64,000 bases of DNA from Turneriella parva DSM 21527 (GTDB lineage Bacteria; Spirochaetota; Leptospiria; Turneriellales; Turneriellaceae), in assembly GCF_000266885.1 (NCBI RefSeq), contig NC_018020.1:3906001-3970000 (forward strand), read 5' to 3'. The notes under the pieces are model-generated. The model did not search any database and was not told the origin of the DNA. It worked only from the letters and a program-made list of their open reading frames with translations. The translations under genes and the position numbers were made by a program. Shown here piece after piece: positions 2,956-14,161 of this stretch; within the stretch, counting starts at the first letter, position 1; the number at the start of each line of letters is the position of its first letter.

Positions 2956-2988
2956 GTTAGAGTGTTGGGCAAAGCCCAACACTCTAAC
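2956..2988. terminator. Perfect 15-bp hairpin between convergent genes
   Basis: GTTAGAGTGTTGGGC, loop AAA, GCCCAACACTCTAAC: two perfect 15-base arms. It starts six bases after the stop of the plus-strand gene. The right arm contains the TAG stop of the minus-strand aldehyde dehydrogenase (2984-2986). It can act as a terminator in both directions, although no long U-tract follows. Confidence 0.7.
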
Positions 2989-4360
2989 TGCGAATGTGCC
3001 AGGCTTTGGGCCGAGTGAAAGTCTCGATGCCGTAAGTTGAGAGCGTAAGGCCCACCCCGCTGGCACCCCGGCCCGACCAGGGCAACCGCGGGCTTACTCG
3101 GTCACAGCAGTTGATGTAGGCGCTGCCGGCATTCACACCTTTCAGAATTTCGCGCGCGCGATTCTGGTCGCGGCAATAAACTGCTGCTGTAAGCCCGTAT
3201 TGCGTGTCGTTCATGAGCTTCTGGGCCTCGGCGTCGTCTTTCACCTTCATGATACCGATGACTGGGCCAAAGCTCTCTTCTCGCATGATTTCCATTTCGT
3301 GGTTCACCTCGGTGAGCACCGCTGGTTCGAGATAGACGCCGCTGGCTGTCGCCGCTTTTTTGCCGCCGGTCAGTACCTTCGCGCCCTTCTTCGCGGCATC
3401 GGTAACCTGGCTTTCGAGAAAGTCGAGCGCAGCCTTGCCTCGCGTCAATGCACCGATATACGTATCGTTCTGCTCAGGGTCGCCCAGCCTGAAACTTTTC
3501 ACTGTTTCGACGAAATTCTGCACGAACTGGTCATAGATTTTCTCATGCACATAGATGCGCTCAACGCTGCAGCAGCTCTGTCCCGTGTTGTACATCGCAC
3601 CGTCGGCAGTGGCCTCAGCGGCCGCCTTAACGTCAACATCGTCGGTGATATATGCCGGGTCTTTGCCACCGAGTTCGAGCTGCACTTTAATGAATTTTTT
3701 CGCGGCTGCTTCGGCGATCTTGCGGCCGGTTGCAACCGATCCGGTGAAAAAAATACCGTCGATTGGCTGTTCGAGCAGCGCTGCACCGGCATCACCCCGC
3801 CCGCAGACCAGGGCAAAGACGCCTGAAGGCACACCGGCCTCGTGCAGGTAGCGCTCCATAAGATGCCCCGAAAGCAGCGCAAATTCCGAGGGTTTATAGA
3901 GCACTGCGTTGCCCGTCAAGAGCGCCGGCACATACACATTCGACCCCACAAACCAGGGGTAGTTCCACGCAGAGATATTCGCGATTACGCCGAGCGGTTC
4001 GTGTTCGATCTCTTCGACGAGCGCCGTGCCATCACGCAGCACTGTCTCAGTCGCTACCGTCGTTTCTGTTTCTGCGAGAAAAAAATCGAAACGCGCGAGA
4101 AGACCCTTGAGCTCATTGCGCGACTGGCTGATCGGCTTGCCCGTGTCGCGGGTCAGCACGAGCGCCGCTTCTTCGATGTCTTTCTCAACCCGGTCGCGAA
4201 ATTTCTTCAGAATTTCAAGGCGGGCTGAGAGCCCGAGCCTCTGCCAGGCAGGCTGCGCTGCCCGCGCAGCCTTGTATTTGCGTTCGATGTTCGTATTGTC
4301 GTCGGCAGGCACCTTGCCGATTACTTTGCCCGTCGCCGGATTAATTACTTCAAGTTCCAT
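2984..4360 (-). CDS. NAD(P)-dependent aldehyde dehydrogenase
   Basis: 458 residues from the ATG at 4360, which has AAGGA four bases upstream; a GTG four codons earlier (4372) is possible. ALDH superfamily landmarks appear in order: NISAWNYPW (catalytic Asn), LYKPSE, FFTGSVATG, LELGGKDP (general base Glu), NTGQSCCSVERI (catalytic Cys), EESFGPV. It oxidises an aldehyde to the acid with NAD(P). The stop of the PuuD-like gene lies 19 bases upstream, and the gene closes a same-strand cluster containing an ethanolamine-type permease, a gamma-glutamyl ligase and an alcohol dehydrogenase. The inferred substrate is gamma-glutamyl-aminoacetaldehyde, the equivalent of the PuuC step in putrescine breakdown. 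Succinate-semialdehyde or other aldehydes cannot be excluded. Confidence 0.9.
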   Translation of the reverse strand: MELEVINPATGKVIGKVPADDNTNIERKYKAARAAQPAWQRLGLSARLEILKKFRDRVEKDIEEAALVLTRDTGKPISQSRNELKGLLARFDFFLAETETTVATETVLRDGTALVEEIEHEPLGVIANISAWNYPWFVGSNVYVPALLTGNAVLYKPSEFALLSGHLMERYLHEAGVPSGVFALVCGRGDAGAALLEQPIDGIFFTGSVATGRKIAEAAAKKFIKVQLELGGKDPAYITDDVDVKAAAEATADGAMYNTGQSCCSVERIYVHEKIYDQFVQNFVETVKSFRLGDPEQNDTYIGALTRGKAALDFLESQVTDAAKKGAKVLTGGKKAATASGVYLEPAVLTEVNHEMEIMREESFGPVIGIMKVKDDAEAQKLMNDTQYGLTAAVYCRDQNRAREILKGVNAGSAYINCCDRVSPRLPWSGRGASGVGLTLSTYGIETFTRPKAWHIRS

Positions 4361-4379
4361 ATTGTCCTTCACCCATCGC

Positions 4380-5168
4380 TCAGCGCTGGGACATTTTGAG
4401 TTCTGTTCTGCGCACTTCGCACTCCTGCATAAAATCTTTCAAAAGCGGGTCGCCTGAGAGCAGTGCATTGTCTTCATCGTCATGAAATTCGGGGTGCCAT
4501 TGCACACCACAGATATAGGGTACACCCTGGTACTTGATGCCTTCGACGATATTATCCTCGGTTGAAATCGCTTCAACGGTGAGACCGTCGCCAATATCTT
4601 TCAGCGCCTGATGGTGCACGCTGTTGGTACGAAAGCTGCCGCGACCGAAGACTTTCTCGAGGTACGACCCATGTTTGAATTTAATCTCGTGAAAGTTCTG
4701 GTCGTACACGTTCCAGTCGCGGTGCACAAGCGATTTGTCGATCTGCGTATTGATATCCTGATAGAGCGACCCGCCGAGCGCCACGTTGATCAGCTGCGCG
4801 CCCCTGCAGATACCGAGCACGGGCTTTTCAGCTGCCTTGAACGCCTTAAAGAGTTCAATCTCATAAAGGTCACGCACGCGGTCGCCTTTCCATTCGTCTT
4901 TGAGCGGTTTTTCGCCATAACTTTCGGGCGCGACATCGGCGCCGCCGTGCAGCACCAGACCGTCGAGCGCTGCCGCATATTCGCTGAGTTCAACCTTACC
5001 GCCCGTTGCCACCGATGGAATCATGAACGCCTGCGCGCCGAGCCGCATAACCCAATGCGCCAGCGATTCTTCGACATAAAGCAGTGTTTTGCCTTTAAAA
5101 ATCGCGCGCTGCGGATCTTTATGCATGAAGCAGGCAGAGATTCCAATTCTAAGTCTTTCGCTTTTCAT
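4380..5168 (-). CDS. PuuD-like class I glutamine amidotransferase (gamma-glutamyl amide hydrolase)
   Basis: 262 residues. The class I amidotransferase hydrolase fold is shown by LHGGADVAPESYGEK (about 94-108), GICRGAQLINVALGGSLYQDI with nucleophile Cys (about 140-160), HHQALKDIGDGL, and GVQWHPEFH with the His and Glu of the triad near residue 224. The order and the oxyanion context GGADVxP are typical of PuuD, which splits gamma-glutamyl-GABA. Next to an aldehyde dehydrogenase and in line with a glutamine-synthetase-like ligase, it probably hydrolyses the gamma-glutamylated end product, releasing glutamate and an amino acid. No synthetase partner domain is present, so this is a stand-alone hydrolase. 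Confidence 0.87.
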   Translation of the reverse strand: MKSERLRIGISACFMHKDPQRAIFKGKTLLYVEESLAHWVMRLGAQAFMIPSVATGGKVELSEYAAALDGLVLHGGADVAPESYGEKPLKDEWKGDRVRDLYEIELFKAFKAAEKPVLGICRGAQLINVALGGSLYQDINTQIDKSLVHRDWNVYDQNFHEIKFKHGSYLEKVFGRGSFRTNSVHHQALKDIGDGLTVEAISTEDNIVEGIKYQGVPYICGVQWHPEFHDDEDNALLSGDPLLKDFMQECEVRRTELKMSQR

Positions 5169-5242
5169 GTGATTGTCAGGGCAATGCCATTCTCTCAGTC
5201 ACCGCTTATAGCATTTTCGGGCTATGCCCACCGCGGGGCGCG

Positions 5243-6187
5243 CTATTCGGCGTTGCTGTACTGCGAGACAAATGAAATAAAACGAATCGCCTCGGGCACA
5301 TCTTTGCCGCTGAACGAAACCGTCGCGCCATCGACGCGTTCGACGATCGGCAGGTACGCGAGAATTTCGGCGTTGAGCATCTGCTTGAATGCAATTTCGA
5401 CTTTCACGGGTTTCGCCACCTTATAAGGCCTAAACTCTTTCAGCCGCTGCAGCGCAGCTTTTGTTCCCGCAGAAATCAATGCCCTGGCAGCCTGGGGCGA
5501 AACGCTGTCTGCGGCATGATAGCCGATTGCCCGCTTGACCACAACCCCTTCGATTTTCGCGCTGATGTCTTTTTTCGCTTCGGCAACCGCGAGATCGTCC
5601 CCCGTCACCATAACAACCGGTACTGCGAAATGCCCGGCGGTTGCCGCGCTGAGCAGCGCTTCGCTCGCATGCTTGCCCCCAAACCGCACATCAAAGAACC
5701 TTTTAGATGACATCGTGTGCGCCCGCACCGCGCCGGGTACACCGATTGACGCGTGGTACCCAATCAGAATCGCCGCGTCGTAACCTTCGTCGATGCCCTG
5801 CATCATCATTAACGGGCGCGGCCACGAACGAATGAGCCGCGCTTTGGGGTTCAGCTCTTCAGGCAAGAGCGACAAACCGTTGCCGTGCGAATCAGAGACC
5901 GTGACTTTGGTTGCTCCGGCTGCGAACGCAGCTTCGATGCACGCATTGGCCTCGGCCGTCATGAGGCGGCGAAATTTTTCATATTCGAAACCGCCGGGTG
6001 CAAGCTGCGCTTCGTTCACAACCCCGGCAACGCCTTCCATATCGACAGAGATGTAGACCCGCAGCTGCGGTGTTTCACCCGTGACAGAAGTCGAAAAGCC
6101 GGCAAACAAGAGCAGCAAGAGGTACACCACCTTTCGCCGCGAGGCCGAACGTTGCGCGAGAAAGAAATGAGGATTGCGTAATGACAT
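5243..6187 (-). CDS. M55 family (DppA-like) D-aminopeptidase, predicted exported
   Basis: 314 residues. Residues 19-37 (RKVVYLLLLLFAGFSTSVTG) resemble a signal peptide after a long basic N-terminus, so export to the periplasm is likely. The mature part opens with VYISVDMEGVAGV, the metal-binding signature of M55 zinc aminopeptidases, followed by ATKVTVSDSHGNG, GYDAAILIGYHA and VVMVTGDDLAVAEAK. Bacillus DppA cleaves D-alanyl peptides. It sits between the TSUP carrier and the PuuD-like hydrolase on the same strand. Its link to the gamma-glutamyl pathway is unclear; it may recycle peptidoglycan or other small peptides. DppA itself is cytoplasmic, so the leader is a notable difference. Confidence 0.85.
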   Translation of the reverse strand: MSLRNPHFFLAQRSASRRKVVYLLLLLFAGFSTSVTGETPQLRVYISVDMEGVAGVVNEAQLAPGGFEYEKFRRLMTAEANACIEAAFAAGATKVTVSDSHGNGLSLLPEELNPKARLIRSWPRPLMMMQGIDEGYDAAILIGYHASIGVPGAVRAHTMSSKRFFDVRFGGKHASEALLSAATAGHFAVPVVMVTGDDLAVAEAKKDISAKIEGVVVKRAIGYHAADSVSPQAARALISAGTKAALQRLKEFRPYKVAKPVKVEIAFKQMLNAEILAYLPIVERVDGATVSFSGKDVPEAIRFISFVSQYSNAE

Positions 6188-6236
6188 GAAACATTGCCGC
6201 TCTTTCGCGCTGCGCTGTCACGCAAAAGTGCTGTGG

Positions 6237-7001
6237 TCAATCGGCTGAAACGAAGAAGAGCGAAGCCGCGGCAAAGATCATCCACAGGGCGAGGCCTTTT
6301 CGGTAACGCGCTACGGGAATTCGTGTAAGAAGCCTCTTGCCGGCATAGGTTCCCATCACCATCGAAACCGCCATCACTGCCATCAGCGGTATATCAGCCG
6401 TTCGTGTCCAGTCGCCGAGGCCGAAGGACACGAGCTTTGCGAGGTGCAGCAGCCCCATTGCCGCTCCTTCGTTCGCAATGTATGCCGCCGGCGAAAGCTG
6501 TAGTCGCAGAAAAAACGCATTGGGTAGCGGCCCTGCCGTTCCGCCGATTGCTGAAATGAACCCGACGAACGCGCCAGCTGCAGAGAACCATGCGCCTGGT
6601 TCTTGCGGAGGCTTAATACTTTTGAAGAACGATGGCAGGCGACCGAACGCTTCGCCGGCCTCGAGCAGCGCGGCGATGCAGACTATCGTGGCAACGAGCG
6701 GCCGCGCAGTCGATTCTGAAAATTGGGTCAGATAAAGCGTGCCCAAAACAGCAGCCGGCACGAGCCCCACCGCGAACAGGAGAACGATGCGTGGTTGCAG
6801 TTCAGCATACCCGAACAATGCCCGGGCGGCATTGCCGACCAGCTGCGCGCAGGCAAGAATCGGCAGCGCGCGCTGCACGCCGAAGATTGCCGAAAGCACG
6901 GGCAACAAGAGAATTGCCCCACCAAAACCCGCGCAGCTGCTCACCACTGCGGCAGCAAATGCCGCGATAACCGGAAATAAATACTCGACCAGCGGCGGCA
7001 T
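6237..7001 (-). CDS. TauE/SafE (TSUP) family membrane transporter
   Basis: 254 residues, almost entirely hydrophobic, with about seven or eight membrane segments. The start PPLVEYLFPVIAAFAAAVVS and the SCAGFGGAILLLPVL motif are typical of TSUP proteins, as is the second-half repeat AAGAFVGFISAIGGTAGPLP. Family members move sulfite, sulfoacetate, sulfolactate and other small organic anions across the inner membrane. It lies 50 bases upstream of the M55 gene on the same strand. In this context it might export or import a small anion linked to amine degradation, or belong to sulfur metabolism as the YeeE pair does. The substrate is not readable from the sequence. Confidence 0.88.
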   Translation of the reverse strand: MPPLVEYLFPVIAAFAAAVVSSCAGFGGAILLLPVLSAIFGVQRALPILACAQLVGNAARALFGYAELQPRIVLLFAVGLVPAAVLGTLYLTQFSESTARPLVATIVCIAALLEAGEAFGRLPSFFKSIKPPQEPGAWFSAAGAFVGFISAIGGTAGPLPNAFFLRLQLSPAAYIANEGAAMGLLHLAKLVSFGLGDWTRTADIPLMAVMAVSMVMGTYAGKRLLTRIPVARYRKGLALWMIFAAASLFFVSAD

Positions 7002-7074
7002 TGCCAGTCATTATTTTGTTACTTGGCGAATTGTCAATCTATACTGGACGCTCCGGCTTGACAGTGAAATGGCT

Positions 7075-7260
7075 TCAGGTTGCCCGGGCCGCCATCAGCT
7101 GCACCTGCATTAAGCGATTCTTTGCCTGAATCGCGCAGACGGGGCAAAGGTAGCGGCAGGTTTCCATTCCATTGTCGAACGAATCGTCTTCAACAATACG
7201 CGCCACATTGATACCCACCTTTTCATGGCATTCGCTGCATTCGATGTCTTGTGTATACAT
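7075..7260 (-). CDS. Small zinc-ribbon-like protein with two CXXC motifs
   Basis: 61 residues from the ATG at 7260, chosen because AGGAGA sits 7 bases upstream. An earlier in-frame start at 7287 has no such site. Two CXXC pairs are visible, ECSECHEK near residue 7 and YLCPVCAIQ near residue 40, separated by an acidic stretch with a further Cys (METCRYLC). This spacing suits a single structural zinc ribbon. No family is recognised. It stands inside the minus-strand ethanolamine-type cluster, between the alcohol dehydrogenase and the TSUP gene, with a gap of about 73 bases before the latter. A role as a small regulator or metal-binding accessory is possible but unsupported. Confidence 0.65.
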   Translation of the reverse strand: MYTQDIECSECHEKVGINVARIVEDDSFDNGMETCRYLCPVCAIQAKNRLMQVQLMAARAT

Positions 7261-7378
7261 ACTTGTTCTCCTGCGCAGGCATAGCACAGAAAAACTGCAG
7301 AGTCAATCAGCAACAGGGCCACATCTGGTAAGTGATTGTACGTAGCGGGTTACCCCAACCGGGCGCTGACTAAGCGCA

Positions 7379-8536
7379 TTACACGAGTGAAGCAAAAATA
7401 GTTCTAAAATCCGCTTCGCTCACGCTAACCGGGTTTGAAGGGTGGCAACCGTCTGCGATCGCGACTTTAACGAGAGGCTCAACCTTGTCGGCGGTGACGC
7501 CGGCGTCTTTCAGTGTTGCAGGAATCTTGAGTTCGGCCTTGAGCGATTTCACCCACGGCAGAAAATCCGCACCGGTTTTTAATCCTACTGCCTGAGCGAG
7601 CCGGTCGAATCGGTCGGGCACTGCCTTGAGGTTGAACGCAAGCGCATGGTCGAGCATAATGCCGTTCGCGAGGCCGTGGTGCATATCGACGATCGCCGAG
7701 AGTGCGTGTGCGCATGAGTGCACAATGCCGAGTCCTTTTTGAAAGGCGACTGCACCCATCATCGACGCCATGAGCATGTCGCCGCGCGCCTTGAGATCGT
7801 TGCCGTTCGCGAACGCCGCAGGCAGCGCTCTGGCAGAAAGGTGCAAGCCCTCGAGCGCAATACCGTCGGCCATCGGGTGCCAGCCCTTGGCCAGAAAGGC
7901 TTCAATCAGGTGCGTCATTGCGTCGAGCCCCGTCGCGGCGGTCACCGCAGGCGGCAGCGCAGACGTGAGTTCAGGGTCTGCGAAAACGGCCTTCGCGAGA
8001 AGACGCGGCGAGAAAATGACTTTTTTGACATGCGTGACATCATCGGCGACAACTGTGCTGCGGCCAACTTCTGAGCCAGTGCCGGCAGTGGTGGGAATCG
8101 CAATCCAATAGGGAACTTCTTTATCGAATGGCAGCGCCCCGGGCTTTTCGTCTTCGTAATCAAACACATCGCCTGGATGGTTCACCATGAGCGCAATCGC
8201 TTTGGCGACGTCGAGCGCAGCGCCACCGCCGATTCCAAGAATCGCACAGTCACCCTTCGACTGGCTGAGGGTGACAAACTTGCGAAAGGCCTCAACGCCT
8301 GCCATCACCTGCGACTTGACGGGATTTCCTTTGACGCCGTTGAAGATATCGATCTTGAGCCCTGCAGCTTTGAGCTCGTCGGCATAGGCAGTAAAAAACG
8401 GCAACTTGCTCAGCATCTCGTCGGTGACAATCATCACAGAGGTGATACCCTGCCCCTTAAAGTGCTCGGGCACCTGCCTGCGCACGCCGGCGCCGAAGGT
8501 GATGGGTGTGGGAAAACTAAAGCGGAATGCACTCAT
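7379..8536 (-). CDS. Iron-containing (group III) alcohol dehydrogenase
   Basis: 385 residues from the ATG at 8536. A TTG at 8569, directly after the stop of the upstream gene, would add 11 residues. The NAD-binding loop GIGGGAALDVAKAIA and PTTAGTGSEVGRS are clear. Metal ligands are visible in GLDAMTHLIEAF (Asp and His), HSCAHALS (His) and DMHHGLANGIML (His), the standard iron set. Such enzymes interconvert primary alcohols and aldehydes with NAD(P). In this cluster the likely substrate is the hydroxyl group of gamma-glutamyl-ethanolamide, giving an aldehyde for the neighbouring dehydrogenase. The ATG lies in the second arm of a perfect 14-bp hairpin (8532-8562), which could restrain translation. 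Confidence 0.9.
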   Translation of the reverse strand: MSAFRFSFPTPITFGAGVRRQVPEHFKGQGITSVMIVTDEMLSKLPFFTAYADELKAAGLKIDIFNGVKGNPVKSQVMAGVEAFRKFVTLSQSKGDCAILGIGGGAALDVAKAIALMVNHPGDVFDYEDEKPGALPFDKEVPYWIAIPTTAGTGSEVGRSTVVADDVTHVKKVIFSPRLLAKAVFADPELTSALPPAVTAATGLDAMTHLIEAFLAKGWHPMADGIALEGLHLSARALPAAFANGNDLKARGDMLMASMMGAVAFQKGLGIVHSCAHALSAIVDMHHGLANGIMLDHALAFNLKAVPDRFDRLAQAVGLKTGADFLPWVKSLKAELKIPATLKDAGVTADKVEPLVKVAIADGCHPSNPVSVSEADFRTIFASLV

Positions 8537-8562
8537 GGTGCGGATTTCATCCGCACCATGAG
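8532..8562 (-). promoter_or_regulatory. Perfect 14-bp hairpin covering the alcohol dehydrogenase start codon
   Basis: Read on the plus strand: CTCATGGTGCGGAT, loop TTC, ATCCGCACCATGAG. All 14 pairs match. It begins seven bases after the TAA of the upstream ligase gene, and the ATG at 8536 lies within the stem. It could be an intercistronic terminator or attenuator, or a structure that hides the start. On the transcript the first arm opens an eight-codon frame (MVRMKSAP) whose TGA overlaps the gene's ATG, so coupled re-initiation is also possible. Confidence 0.6.
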
Positions 8563-8569
8563 CGAGCAA

Positions 8570-9937
8570 TTAGATAATCTCAAAATAGCGTCGGGTTTCC
8601 CAGTCGGTCACTGAATCCTGAAACTGCCGCCATTCCCAATTGCGGGTGGCGACGAAGTGTTCGACCAGATTTTCACCCAGAATTTCGCGCGCAATTTTTG
8701 AATCGGCGAGCTTCTGCGTCGCTTCGCTGAGATTGTGGGGTAGACGCGGCACGCTGCTCTCTGCATACGCGCTGCCTTTCACCGGCGCGTCTTCAAGTTT
8801 GAGGTTTTTCTCAATGCCATAAAGCCCGGCAGCGAGTGAAGCCGCGACCGAAAGGTATGGGTTCACATCTGAACCCGAGACGCGCACCTCAAGCCGCGTC
8901 GACTTTTCAGATCCGGGAATCACGCGGTGCGATACGGTGCGGTTGTCGATGCCCCAGGTGGGTTTTGTGGGCGCCCAGTAGCCGTCGACCAGCCGCTTGT
9001 AAGAATTCACCGTCGGAGCGAAAAACGGCAAGAGTTCGGGCAAGAGTTTCAGTTGGCCCGCAAGATAACTCTTAAAGGTTGCGCTCATTTTGTGAGTATC
9101 ACCCGCATCGTAAAAAGCATTCTCGCCATTTTTCGTCCAGAGCGATTGGTGCATGTGGCCTGAGCAGCCCGGCAGGTCTTTGTGCCACTTGGCCATGAAG
9201 CTCGGCATGATGCCGAATCGCGCGGCGATGTCTTTTGCACCGGCTTTAAAGAGCGTCGCGCGGTCGGCGCTTTCAAGCGCACCACTGTAGAGAATCGCCG
9301 CCTCATAGACACCTGGCCCGGTTTCGGTATGCAGCCCTTCAATCGGCACGTTAAACGCTGTCAGTTCATCCATCAGCGCGTTGAAGAAGTCGCGCTCCTG
9401 CCCGGCGCGTATCAGCGAATAGCCGAACATGCCCGGGGTGATTGGTTCGGGGCGGATATACCCCTTGTCGTGCAGGCTTTTCGCCGATTCGCGAAAATTA
9501 AACCATTCGAACTCCATACCGTTTTTCGGGGTGAATCCCATTGCCTCGGCTTTTCGTATAACCCGCCGCAGCGCCTGGCGCGGGCAGATCGAAAGCGGAG
9601 TCATGTCTGATTTTACGAAATGCCCGAGAAAGAATGGCACGTCGTTATCCCACGGCACAGTGCGGTGCGTTGCCGGGTCAAGCTGCACGAGCGCATCGGG
9701 GTAACCCGTATGCCAGCCAGTATACTTCACATTGTCGTAGCAGACATCTGATGAATCCCACCCGAGCACTACATTGCAGAAGCCAAAGGTCGATTCTGCC
9801 GCCGCTCTGAATTTATCGAAGTGCAAGTACTTGCCGCGCAGCACGCCATCGATGTCGGCGACGGCGACCTTTACCTTTTTAACGCCGCCATGTTCGAGGC
9901 GTTCGAGAATTTTTTTGAAGTCGGCCAATTCGTCCAT
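8570..9937 (-). CDS. Glutamine synthetase family ligase (gamma-glutamyl-amine synthetase, PuuA/GlnA4-like)
   Basis: 455 residues. The N-terminal beta-grasp part has VKVAVADIDGVLRGKYLHFDK, the non-canonical opening seen in PuuA-like enzymes rather than in housekeeping GlnA. Metal and substrate motifs follow: NGMEFEWF, GLHTETGPGVYEAAI, GCSGHMHQSLW, DNRTVSHRVI and STRLEVRVSGSDVNPYLS. The adenylylation-site region typical of GlnA is absent. Such enzymes join the gamma-carboxyl of glutamate to an amine with ATP. It lies 131 bases downstream of an ethanolamine-type permease and directly upstream of an alcohol dehydrogenase, so ethanolamine is the best guess for the amine. Putrescine or another alkylamine remains possible. 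Confidence 0.85.
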   Translation of the reverse strand: MDELADFKKILERLEHGGVKKVKVAVADIDGVLRGKYLHFDKFRAAAESTFGFCNVVLGWDSSDVCYDNVKYTGWHTGYPDALVQLDPATHRTVPWDNDVPFFLGHFVKSDMTPLSICPRQALRRVIRKAEAMGFTPKNGMEFEWFNFRESAKSLHDKGYIRPEPITPGMFGYSLIRAGQERDFFNALMDELTAFNVPIEGLHTETGPGVYEAAILYSGALESADRATLFKAGAKDIAARFGIMPSFMAKWHKDLPGCSGHMHQSLWTKNGENAFYDAGDTHKMSATFKSYLAGQLKLLPELLPFFAPTVNSYKRLVDGYWAPTKPTWGIDNRTVSHRVIPGSEKSTRLEVRVSGSDVNPYLSVAASLAAGLYGIEKNLKLEDAPVKGSAYAESSVPRLPHNLSEATQKLADSKIAREILGENLVEHFVATRNWEWRQFQDSVTDWETRRYFEII

Positions 9938-10068
9938 GCGCCCTATTCGCTATCGCGCCCGCTGCTGCAAAGTGCAAAAGTTTAGGCAAGGCTACGCGAC
10001 AGGTCGCCGCGATTCTCAATCCAGCCAAATTGCAAAACGGTGAAATTCCAGAAAAGCGGGCGCAGCCC

Positions 10069-11400
10069 TTACACCCCAATGCCTTCCCGGCGCAGGTGCA
10101 CGGCATAGAAATAGACGGCACCGAGAGCTAAAATCAACACATAGAGCACAAACAGCATCTGGTTAAACCATGCCATCGCTGCCATCGAAAAGGCCGCGAT
10201 AACCAGCGCAACAATAGGCGTCACTGGGTAGAGCGGTGCACGAAACGGCCGCGCCAGGTTCGGATCTGTTTTGCGCAGCACGACCAGCGAAACCATCGCC
10301 AGAATGTAGATCGTAAGCGCGCCGAACGCTGCGAGCGTGATCATCTGCGCGGTTTTGCCTGTGAGCAAAATTGCCGTGCCGATGAGCATGTTGAGGGCAA
10401 GCGCGTTCGCGGGAGTCTGCCGGGTGTGGTGCAGCCTCGCGAAAACATGGTGGATATACCTCGCACGGCCGAGTTCCATCGTGGTGCGGCCGGCAACGAG
10501 CAAGATGCCATGAAACGACGCGATTAGTCCCAATAACCCAATCGACACAAGCAGGTGATAGAGAGGGTGATTCTGGCCCGTGACAAATGCAAGCGCGAGC
10601 GGCAGCGGTGAATCAGACGGCGTCGCTTTTCCCGGTGGGTAAACAACCGCCTGCCAGCCGGCGACGCCGATTGCTCCGAAAAATACGAGCAGCGCCAGAA
10701 TCGCCAGCGTTGCCATCGAAAGGTTGAAGCCGAGTGAAAGGTCGCGCTGCGGGTTCTTGACCTCTTCTGCAATATTCGCGACGCCTTCGATCGCAAGATA
10801 GAACCAGATCGCAAACGGTATTGCGGGTAAGACGCCCCACCAGCCATTGGGCAGCGCATCTTTCGTGAATGCTGCGAAATTGAAATGCGGCAGCGTCAGG
10901 CCGGTGAAGAGCAGTAGCTCCACCACCGCAAGAATAGTGATGAAGACGCCGAAGATAGCCGATTCTCTGACACCCCAGATATTGAGCGCGGTAAAAATAA
11001 AATACGCGGCAATCGCGAAGGCAATCGCATCGACCGACGGCACGAGCAGGTTCAGGTAAGCGCCGATCGCCGCAGCAATCGCCGGCGGAGCAAAAACAAA
11101 TTCGATATTCTGCGCGAGGCCCGCGATAAACCCCGCGAACGCGCCCAGCGCACGCTGCGAATAGACGAACACTCCACCCGCGCGCGGCAGTGCAGCCGCC
11201 AGTTCGGCGTAGCTGAGCACGAAACAGACATACATGAGCGTGATAATGAGCGTCGCGACGAGCATGCCGTAGGGCCCGCTTTGCGGCAGGCCGAGGTTCC
11301 AGCCGAAATACATTCCCGAGATGACATAGCCGACGCCCATGCCCCAGACGGCGAGCGGGCCCAAAGTGCGCTTAAGGGTCGGAGAGCTGTGATTTTCCAT
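10069..11400 (-). CDS. eat: APC superfamily permease, ethanolamine permease type
   Basis: 443 residues from the ATG at 11400; in-frame ATGs at 11409 and 11433 and a TTG at 11448 are alternatives, none with a clear ribosome binding site. About 12 membrane segments are present. The segments VGYVISGMYFGWNLGLPQSG, LSYAELAAALPRAGGVFVYS and GLAQNIEFVFAPPAIAAAIG match what is characteristic of ethanolamine permeases of the Eat type. It is the first gene of the minus-strand cluster and would import the amine across the inner membrane. Ethanolamine ammonia-lyase genes (eutBC), common neighbours of eat, are not in this window; a glutamine-synthetase-like ligase follows instead. Confidence 0.82.
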   Translation of the reverse strand: MENHSSPTLKRTLGPLAVWGMGVGYVISGMYFGWNLGLPQSGPYGMLVATLIITLMYVCFVLSYAELAAALPRAGGVFVYSQRALGAFAGFIAGLAQNIEFVFAPPAIAAAIGAYLNLLVPSVDAIAFAIAAYFIFTALNIWGVRESAIFGVFITILAVVELLLFTGLTLPHFNFAAFTKDALPNGWWGVLPAIPFAIWFYLAIEGVANIAEEVKNPQRDLSLGFNLSMATLAILALLVFFGAIGVAGWQAVVYPPGKATPSDSPLPLALAFVTGQNHPLYHLLVSIGLLGLIASFHGILLVAGRTTMELGRARYIHHVFARLHHTRQTPANALALNMLIGTAILLTGKTAQMITLAAFGALTIYILAMVSLVVLRKTDPNLARPFRAPLYPVTPIVALVIAAFSMAAMAWFNQMLFVLYVLILALGAVYFYAVHLRREGIGV

Positions 11401-11428
11401 AGCTGGCATTGCACCATAGCTATGGAAA
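11394..11428 (-). promoter_or_regulatory. 11-bp inverted repeat over the permease start region
   Basis: TTTCCATAGCT at 11394-11404 and AGCTATGGAAA at 11418-11428 form a perfect inverted repeat with a 13-base gap, and a further CCATAG lies just beyond. Two of the candidate start codons fall inside it. It could be an operator or an RNA hairpin limiting translation; nothing else supports either. Confidence 0.35.
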
Positions 11429-11465
11429 TCCATAGCAGGAAAAGGCAAATGGGGCCGCGCGGGCC

Positions 11466-13405: not shown

Positions 13406-14161
13406 ATGCGTTACCTGCAGCATGTTGAAAAGTTCGTCGATGGCATGAAGGTTGTTGAGGTATTGAAGCGATCAGAAGCCAATCCCGAAGCGCAGCCAGC
13501 GAAGAACGACGGCACTGTTTTTTTCTGCATGCACGGCTATGGAGCCAATGCGTACGACCTTGCAGGCCTTTCGGCCTACCTGGATTTTCCCGAAGGCACG
13601 CGCATGATATTTCCCAATGGCATTCTGGGCATCGACATGGGTTATGGCGGCCAGCAGGGTCGCGCCTGGTTCAACATCGACTGGGTAGAAATCGAGCGCA
13701 TTCGCCGCGAAGGGGGATTACGCGACCTGTCGAAGTCCCTGCCCCCCGGCATGGCAGACGCGCGCGACACGCTGATCGCTGCGATGGAAAAACTCGAGTG
13801 CGACCCCGCGAGAACAATCGTTGGTGGTTTTTCTCAAGGCGCGATGCTCGCGACCGAAATAATGCTGAACCACAGCAGCTATCTCAAGGGGCTTATTGTT
13901 TTTTCTGGCACGCTCGTGAACCGCATTGGCTGGGAGCAAACGGCGGCAAACAAATACGGCGCACAGAGCAAAGTTTTATCGTTCATTCAGTCTCATGGCA
14001 CCCATGACCCTGTTCTACCTGTGCAGGCCGCACACCGTTTGTATGCACTGCTGACAGAGCATGGCGGCGAGGGCAAACTCGTCGAATTCGCCGGGCAGCA
14101 TGAGATTCCGGCGCAGGTGATTGATGAAACGAATAATTGGTTGAGAGAACAGTTTCGCTGA
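13406..14161 (+). CDS. Phospholipase/carboxylesterase family alpha/beta hydrolase
   Basis: 251 residues. The fold markers are FFCMHGYGANAYDL (oxyanion region, about 41-54), GGFSQGAMLATE with nucleophile Ser (about 146-157), HGTHDPVLPV with the catalytic Asp (about 198-207), and a His in FAGQHEIPA (about 229-237). The motif order is that of the carboxylesterase/phospholipase (PF02230) family, which hydrolyses lysophospholipids and short esters in the cytoplasm. No signal peptide is present. Length is slightly above the usual 210-230 residues because of an insertion of about 25 residues after the first strands. It is a stand-alone gene with no informative neighbours. Confidence 0.87.
   Translation: MRYLQHVEKFVDGMKVVEVLKRSEANPEAQPAKNDGTVFFCMHGYGANAYDLAGLSAYLDFPEGTRMIFPNGILGIDMGYGGQQGRAWFNIDWVEIERIRREGGLRDLSKSLPPGMADARDTLIAAMEKLECDPARTIVGGFSQGAMLATEIMLNHSSYLKGLIVFSGTLVNRIGWEQTAANKYGAQSKVLSFIQSHGTHDPVLPVQAAHRLYALLTEHGGEGKLVEFAGQHEIPAQVIDETNNWLREQFR

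Follow-up and report, generated by a model that had tools for sequence, protein, structure and literature searches.

Might a gene cluster of the free-living spirochaete Turneriella parva DSM 21527 allow the organism to use ethanolamine, which commonly arises when membrane lipids are broken down, with no recourse to vitamin B12? The cluster lies in a stretch of 64,000 nucleotides (positions 3,906,001 to 3,970,000 of contig NC_018020.1), the whole of which is referred to here as the window. A preliminary description, made from the sequence alone, had proposed that ethanolamine is imported, glutamylated, oxidized and hydrolyzed to glutamate and glycine. Having followed this proposal through family profiles, related loci, phylogenies and a survey of the phylum, we consider it quite probable that the locus is a B12-independent ethanolamine catabolic operon.

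Results

Gene content and proposed route

The same-strand set of five genes named in the preliminary description is borne out by open reading frames and family profiles. Full-length, co-directional ORFs for the permease, the ligase, a group III iron alcohol dehydrogenase (Fe-ADH), a C26 hydrolase and an aldehyde dehydrogenase (ALDH) span 2984-11448 of the minus strand (Table 1), and with them a glutamine-synthetase-like ligase, an alcohol-level dehydrogenase, an ALDH and a gamma-glutamyl hydrolase all stand at one locus. The likely start of Fe-ADH is the ATG at 8536, 33 nt past the ligase stop codon. No regulator gene adjoins the operon, whose genes are presumably co-transcribed. Promoter-like sites in the region show no excess over shuffled sequences; terminator-like sites number 19 against 11.3 in shuffles, and as they are scattered and mostly intragenic, we do not use them to define a transcription unit. 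Near the cluster the window also has genes for a fatty acid desaturase and for a member of the phospholipase/carboxylesterase family (868-1908, 13406-14161).

Table 1. Features of the locus, with positions in the window and the matches on which the assignments rest.
Feature	Position	Strand	Basis
Eat-type (APC family) ethanolamine permease	10069..11448	-	TIGR00908 'ethanolamine permease', 407.4 bits (cut-off 381.75)
Glutamine-synthetase-like gamma-glutamyl ligase, proposed gamma-glutamylethanolamide synthetase	8570..9937	-	PF00120, 323.6 bits
Group III iron alcohol dehydrogenase, proposed gamma-glutamylethanolamide dehydrogenase	7379..8569	-	PF00465 and PF25137
TauE/SafE-family permease, probable insertion	6237..7001	-	PF01925; missing from 80 related loci
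DppA-like M55 D-aminopeptidase, signal-like N-terminus, probable insertion	5243..6187	-	PF04951; missing from 80 related loci
C26-family (PuuD-like) hydrolase, proposed gamma-glutamylglycine hydrolase	4380..5168	-	PF07722, 188.8 bits
Aldehyde dehydrogenase, proposed gamma-glutamyl-aminoacetaldehyde dehydrogenase	2984..4372	-	PF00171, 454 bits

For the substrate and for each catalytic step we infer the following scheme. The Eat-type permease would take up ethanolamine, which the ligase would join to glutamate at the expense of ATP to yield gamma-glutamylethanolamide. Fe-ADH would oxidize the hydroxyl group to give gamma-glutamyl-aminoacetaldehyde, ALDH would carry this to gamma-glutamylglycine, and the C26 hydrolase would release glutamate and glycine. 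The glutamate would be recycled and the glycine could feed the glycine cleavage system; a GDC-P gene is present in the genome.

Conservation of the cassette

A ligase-based scan of genome contigs returned 80 related loci (61-88% identity) that span Comamonadaceae, Bdellovibrionota, Myxococcota, Verrucomicrobiota, Acidimicrobiales, Sericytochromatia and spirochaetes. Their genes were counted by tblastn, longest-ORF calling on high-GC loci giving spurious antisense ORFs. Ligase, ADH, hydrolase and ALDH are complete at 49 of the 61 loci with enough downstream sequence, a recurrence that places the gene set far beyond chance; a further 4 of the 61 have ADH and ALDH alongside the ligase, and we therefore regard the cassette as a functional unit. 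The ligase stands without the other cassette genes at several related loci. The order ligase-ADH-hydrolase-ALDH is kept in distant phyla, and the permease gene lies directly 5' of the ligase in same-genus genomes, in Bdellovibrionota/Oligoflexia and in Sericytochromatia. On a plasmid of Photobacterium sp. GJ3 (L119:4406-9883) the permease, ligase, ALDH and ADH genes are consecutive; this permease belongs to a different Eat subclade, and its pairing with the ligase is an independent one. Thermomicrobium and Embleya pair the permease with a ligase from another clade, and the Thermomicrobium roseum plasmid (L118:3737-7488) has the genes for that other-clade ligase, for a protein resembling short-chain dehydrogenases and for an Eat-type permease in succession. 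More distant ligase relatives (47-49% identity) on plasmids of Rhodobacteraceae M382 (L111) and Pseudorhizobium flavum (L125) lack the ADH gene and have genes for N,N-dimethylformamidase and for ABC transporters of the putrescine type in their neighborhood; these relatives likely act on other amines.

In this strain only, a TauE-family gene and an M55 peptidase gene stand between the ADH and hydrolase genes. We rejected both as pathway members on the basis of the related loci, from which they are missing, and they are probably insertions. The M55 D-aminopeptidase, found in this strain's cluster only, has an N-terminus that would allow export. The ligase, ADH, hydrolase and ALDH genes are contiguous in one same-genus genome (L096), and in two others (L015, L095) the same spot holds a distinct insert that includes a TPR/transglutaminase-like ORF of 1656 aa. 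One of the latter, a metagenome-assembled genome, has a patatin-like phospholipase gene on the opposite strand between permease and ligase (L015:1920-2807), which is suggestive of phospholipid use.

The ligase and its partner enzymes

The ligase matches PF00120 only and lies under all NCBIfam cut-offs for glutamine and polyamine ligases. It had been described as PuuA/GlnA4-like; phylogeny makes it neither, as the window protein falls in a clade of 27 rows (support 99/100) in a tree where PuuA and GlnA are long-branch outgroups, and this clade is apart both from the group of 5dm3, Paracoccus, Ruegeria and Embleya and from IpuC. Identity is highest, among the reference ligases compared, to IpuC-annotated proteins (41%, separate clades), followed by the known ethanolamine-operon ligases (5dm3, Paracoccus and Ruegeria; about 36%, and outside their clade), an Embleya cluster homologue that serves as a GlnA4-like stand-in for S. 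coelicolor GlnA4 (35%, different clade) and PuuA of the E. coli Puu pathway (29%). We take 5dm3 to be the Chromohalobacter ligase, an assignment that fits its identity to the Ruegeria (74%) and Paracoccus (60%) operon ligases. By alignment motifs, the Glu, His and Arg positions of the metal and ATP sites appear to be retained, and the flap Glu of the ammonia site (E327 of Salmonella GlnA) appears to be Trp, as it is in IpuC-annotated proteins. Large residues at this flap position are found in PauA7 (Trp) and GlnA4 (Phe) (PMC6529630). The ligase belongs to a branch of gamma-glutamyl ligases that is separate and apparently uncharacterized.

Among the plasmid matches listed, the best-scoring relatives of the ADH and the best relatives of the ALDH adjoin gamma-glutamyl ligases, those in the Paracoccus and Ruegeria operons included. 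In its tree, the ADH belongs to a clade beside the ADH of these two ethanolamine operons, with weak support (88/79) and few outgroups. The hydrolase has GICRGAQ nucleophile and QWHPE motifs. Its earlier designation as PuuD-like stands as regards the C26 family (PF07722) but does not extend to PuuD proper, for it scores 86 bits against an equivalog cut-off of 266; the cluster likewise falls short of PuuA (212 against 650) and PuuC (261 against 850).

The permease and its substrate

The preliminary description had named grouping with amino-acid permeases as an outcome that would speak against ethanolamine. In the trees that were run the permease sits instead within the Eat clade (support 99/98 in one, 99/100 in the second), many members of which elsewhere adjoin eutBC, and together with three EutB-linked permeases of the same phylum it forms a single 100/100 clade that includes eutBC-adjacent as well as ligase-adjacent members. 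The lack of eutBC first remarked upon for the window extends to the whole genome, in which family searches found neither eutB nor eutC (an E. coli control was positive).

We checked 149 genomes of the phylum for the permease, the ligase and EutB. Nine of them have the permease: four belong to the window's genus and five to other genera. All four Turneriella-genus genomes have the ligase and none has EutB; all five of the others have EutB and, at the threshold used, none has the ligase, and in four of these five the permease adjoins eutB, followed by eutC. The association of the permease with either ligase or EutB has a chance probability of about 1e-8 when genomes are counted and 1e-4 when genera are, with no correction for kinship; it alone is significant, mutual exclusion of ligase and EutB by itself giving P = 0.39. 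Given a permease of the Eat clade that in the sampled genomes of the phylum is always accompanied by the ligase or EutB, never both, and that in four cases stands beside eutBC, ethanolamine is the likely substrate, as had been proposed, and the cassette has apparently replaced eutBC behind one permease type in the phylum. The lack of eutBC in the genome, the gamma-glutamyl ligases beside the listed relatives of the ADH and ALDH, and the apparent Trp at the ammonia site point the same way. At two loci (L123, L124), Eat-annotated permeases stand beside primary-amine oxidases, so other amines are possible and the family name is insufficient proof of ethanolamine.

A link to 2-aminoethylphosphonate

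In Limnohabitans (L063:780-7937) the cassette lies directly 3' of genes for PhnA, PhnS2, two further ABC-transporter components and PhnW, of which PhnA, PhnS2 and PhnW all exceed their NCBIfam cut-offs. A similar arrangement, a 2-aminoethylphosphonate (AEP) cluster followed by the cassette, is seen at other Comamonadaceae loci, and throughout this family the permease is missing from the cassette. Upstream sequence of 3.5 kb or more is available at 59 loci, and 27 of these have a PhnW-like gene 5' of the cassette, often with PhnS2/T/U and PhnA. A literature search limited to open-licence papers, and as such a weak negative, found no published link between AEP genes and the ligase cassette. We read this neighborhood as pointing to a joint use of aminoethyl headgroups.

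Discussion

The reading of the locus as an ethanolamine operon has to be weighed against the description of T. parva as a user of long-chain fatty acids and alcohols; ethanolamine goes unmentioned there, which counts against it, as do the distance of the ligase from those of the known ethanolamine operons and from IpuC, the Eat-type permeases beside primary-amine oxidases, the Comamonadaceae cassettes, which lack the permease and follow AEP genes, and the missing regulator gene. The ethanolamine reading must also be weighed against other readings of the same genes. It is unlikely that the same chemistry serves another short amino alcohol, such as L-alaninol or 3-aminopropanol, to yield a gamma-glutamyl amino acid. 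The proximity of the IpuC-annotated proteins lends this some credence, as does the best NCBIfam model of the ADH, a 4-hydroxybutyrate dehydrogenase that stays below its cut-off. However, the ADH of the Paracoccus ethanolamine operon has the identical top family model, the IpuC proteins branch apart from the window's ligase clade, the locus has no counterpart of the P450/ferredoxin genes that ipuC clusters on plasmids contain, and the permease clade is linked to eutBC in the same phylum. The upstream PhnW-like genes and the Limnohabitans cluster could be taken to mean that the cassette is there mainly for AEP or for a compound derived from it, for example 1-hydroxy-AEP, ethanolamine being secondary, and this we hold to be very unlikely. 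Those loci already possess PhnW, PhnA and another ALDH, a ligase-free route, and shared headgroup scavenging would account for the link; AEP has no hydroxyl group for the ADH to oxidize, which makes a role in its breakdown less likely, and the window has an Eat permease in a genome with no PhnW above the cut-off.

Less credible again is a Puu- or Pau-like detoxification of polyamines or monoamines. Families resembling PuuA and PuuD are present and some Eat-type permeases neighbor amine oxidases, but the scores stay below the equivalog cut-offs for PuuA, PuuC and PuuD alike, and the place of the Puu oxidase is taken by a conserved alcohol dehydrogenase. That the ligase is an ordinary glutamine synthetase beside unrelated dehydrogenases is scarcely tenable, its glutamine synthetase fold notwithstanding: the GlnA score of 225 is far under the cut-off of 429, the ammonia-site Glu is lost, the genome has another glutamine synthetase gene elsewhere, and the cassette is conserved across phyla.

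If the ethanolamine reading is correct, the compound is used without B12 in lineages annotated merely with a 'glutamine synthetase', the cassette would predict ethanolamine use in genomes without eutBC, and the exchange of eutBC for the cassette behind one permease type would be a clean case of non-orthologous replacement. We tentatively go further, to a proposal that is somewhat more doubtful than secure: the ligase clade may be a third line of gamma-glutamylethanolamide synthetases, recruited independently and spread horizontally over many phyla, which in spirochaetes took the place of eutBC behind the same permease and in Comamonadaceae became part of AEP operons for joint scavenging of aminoethyl headgroups.

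Comparison with known systems

The route itself, put forward in the preliminary description as a candidate pathway, is not new, for the reports on Phaeobacter and on Streptomyces GlnA4 make it a known one (PMC10132767, PMC6529630). Westermann et al. (2023) described an operon of Phaeobacter sp. MED193, induced on phosphorylethanolamine, that encodes an ethanolamine gamma-glutamylase, a gamma-glutamylethanolamide dehydrogenase, an aldehyde dehydrogenase and a gamma-glutamylglycine amidohydrolase (PMC10132767), and that paper cites operons of Chromohalobacter salexigens and Agrobacterium as closely related precedents. Our locus has in common with the Phaeobacter operon a ligase, a dehydrogenase, an ALDH and an amidohydrolase yielding glycine and glutamate, and the annotated Paracoccus and Ruegeria operons are of the same families as the Phaeobacter type. 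In contrast, the Phaeobacter operon has a TRAP transporter in place of the window's Eat permease and a hydrolase of the N-formylglutamate amidohydrolase family in place of its C26 hydrolase, and the ligases of this type belong to the other clade described above. Krysenko et al. (2019) showed that GlnA4 accepts ethanolamine as a substrate and put forward the whole route, through gamma-glutamylethanolamide, its aldehyde and gamma-glutamylglycine to glycine and glutamate; the corresponding cluster (SCO1610-1615) also includes a permease and a glutamine amidotransferase (PMC6529630), but has a short-chain dehydrogenase in place of Fe-ADH.

Other systems share less. The Eat-EutBC operons have the permease family and presumed substrate in common with the window, whereas a B12-dependent lyase occupies the place of the ligase cassette. 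The IpuC route for isopropylamine and alaninol shares a gamma-glutamyl ligase, an ALDH and amidotransferase-like genes, but relies on P450/ferredoxin and a short-chain dehydrogenase, where the window has Fe-ADH and no P450 or ferredoxin. The E. coli Puu pathway follows a common logic of gamma-glutamyl tagging, oxidation and hydrolysis, with a PuuB-type oxidase that the cassette lacks. Relative to all of these, what is new here is the separate ligase clade, the apparent exchange of eutBC for the cassette behind one permease type, and the link to AEP genes in Comamonadaceae.
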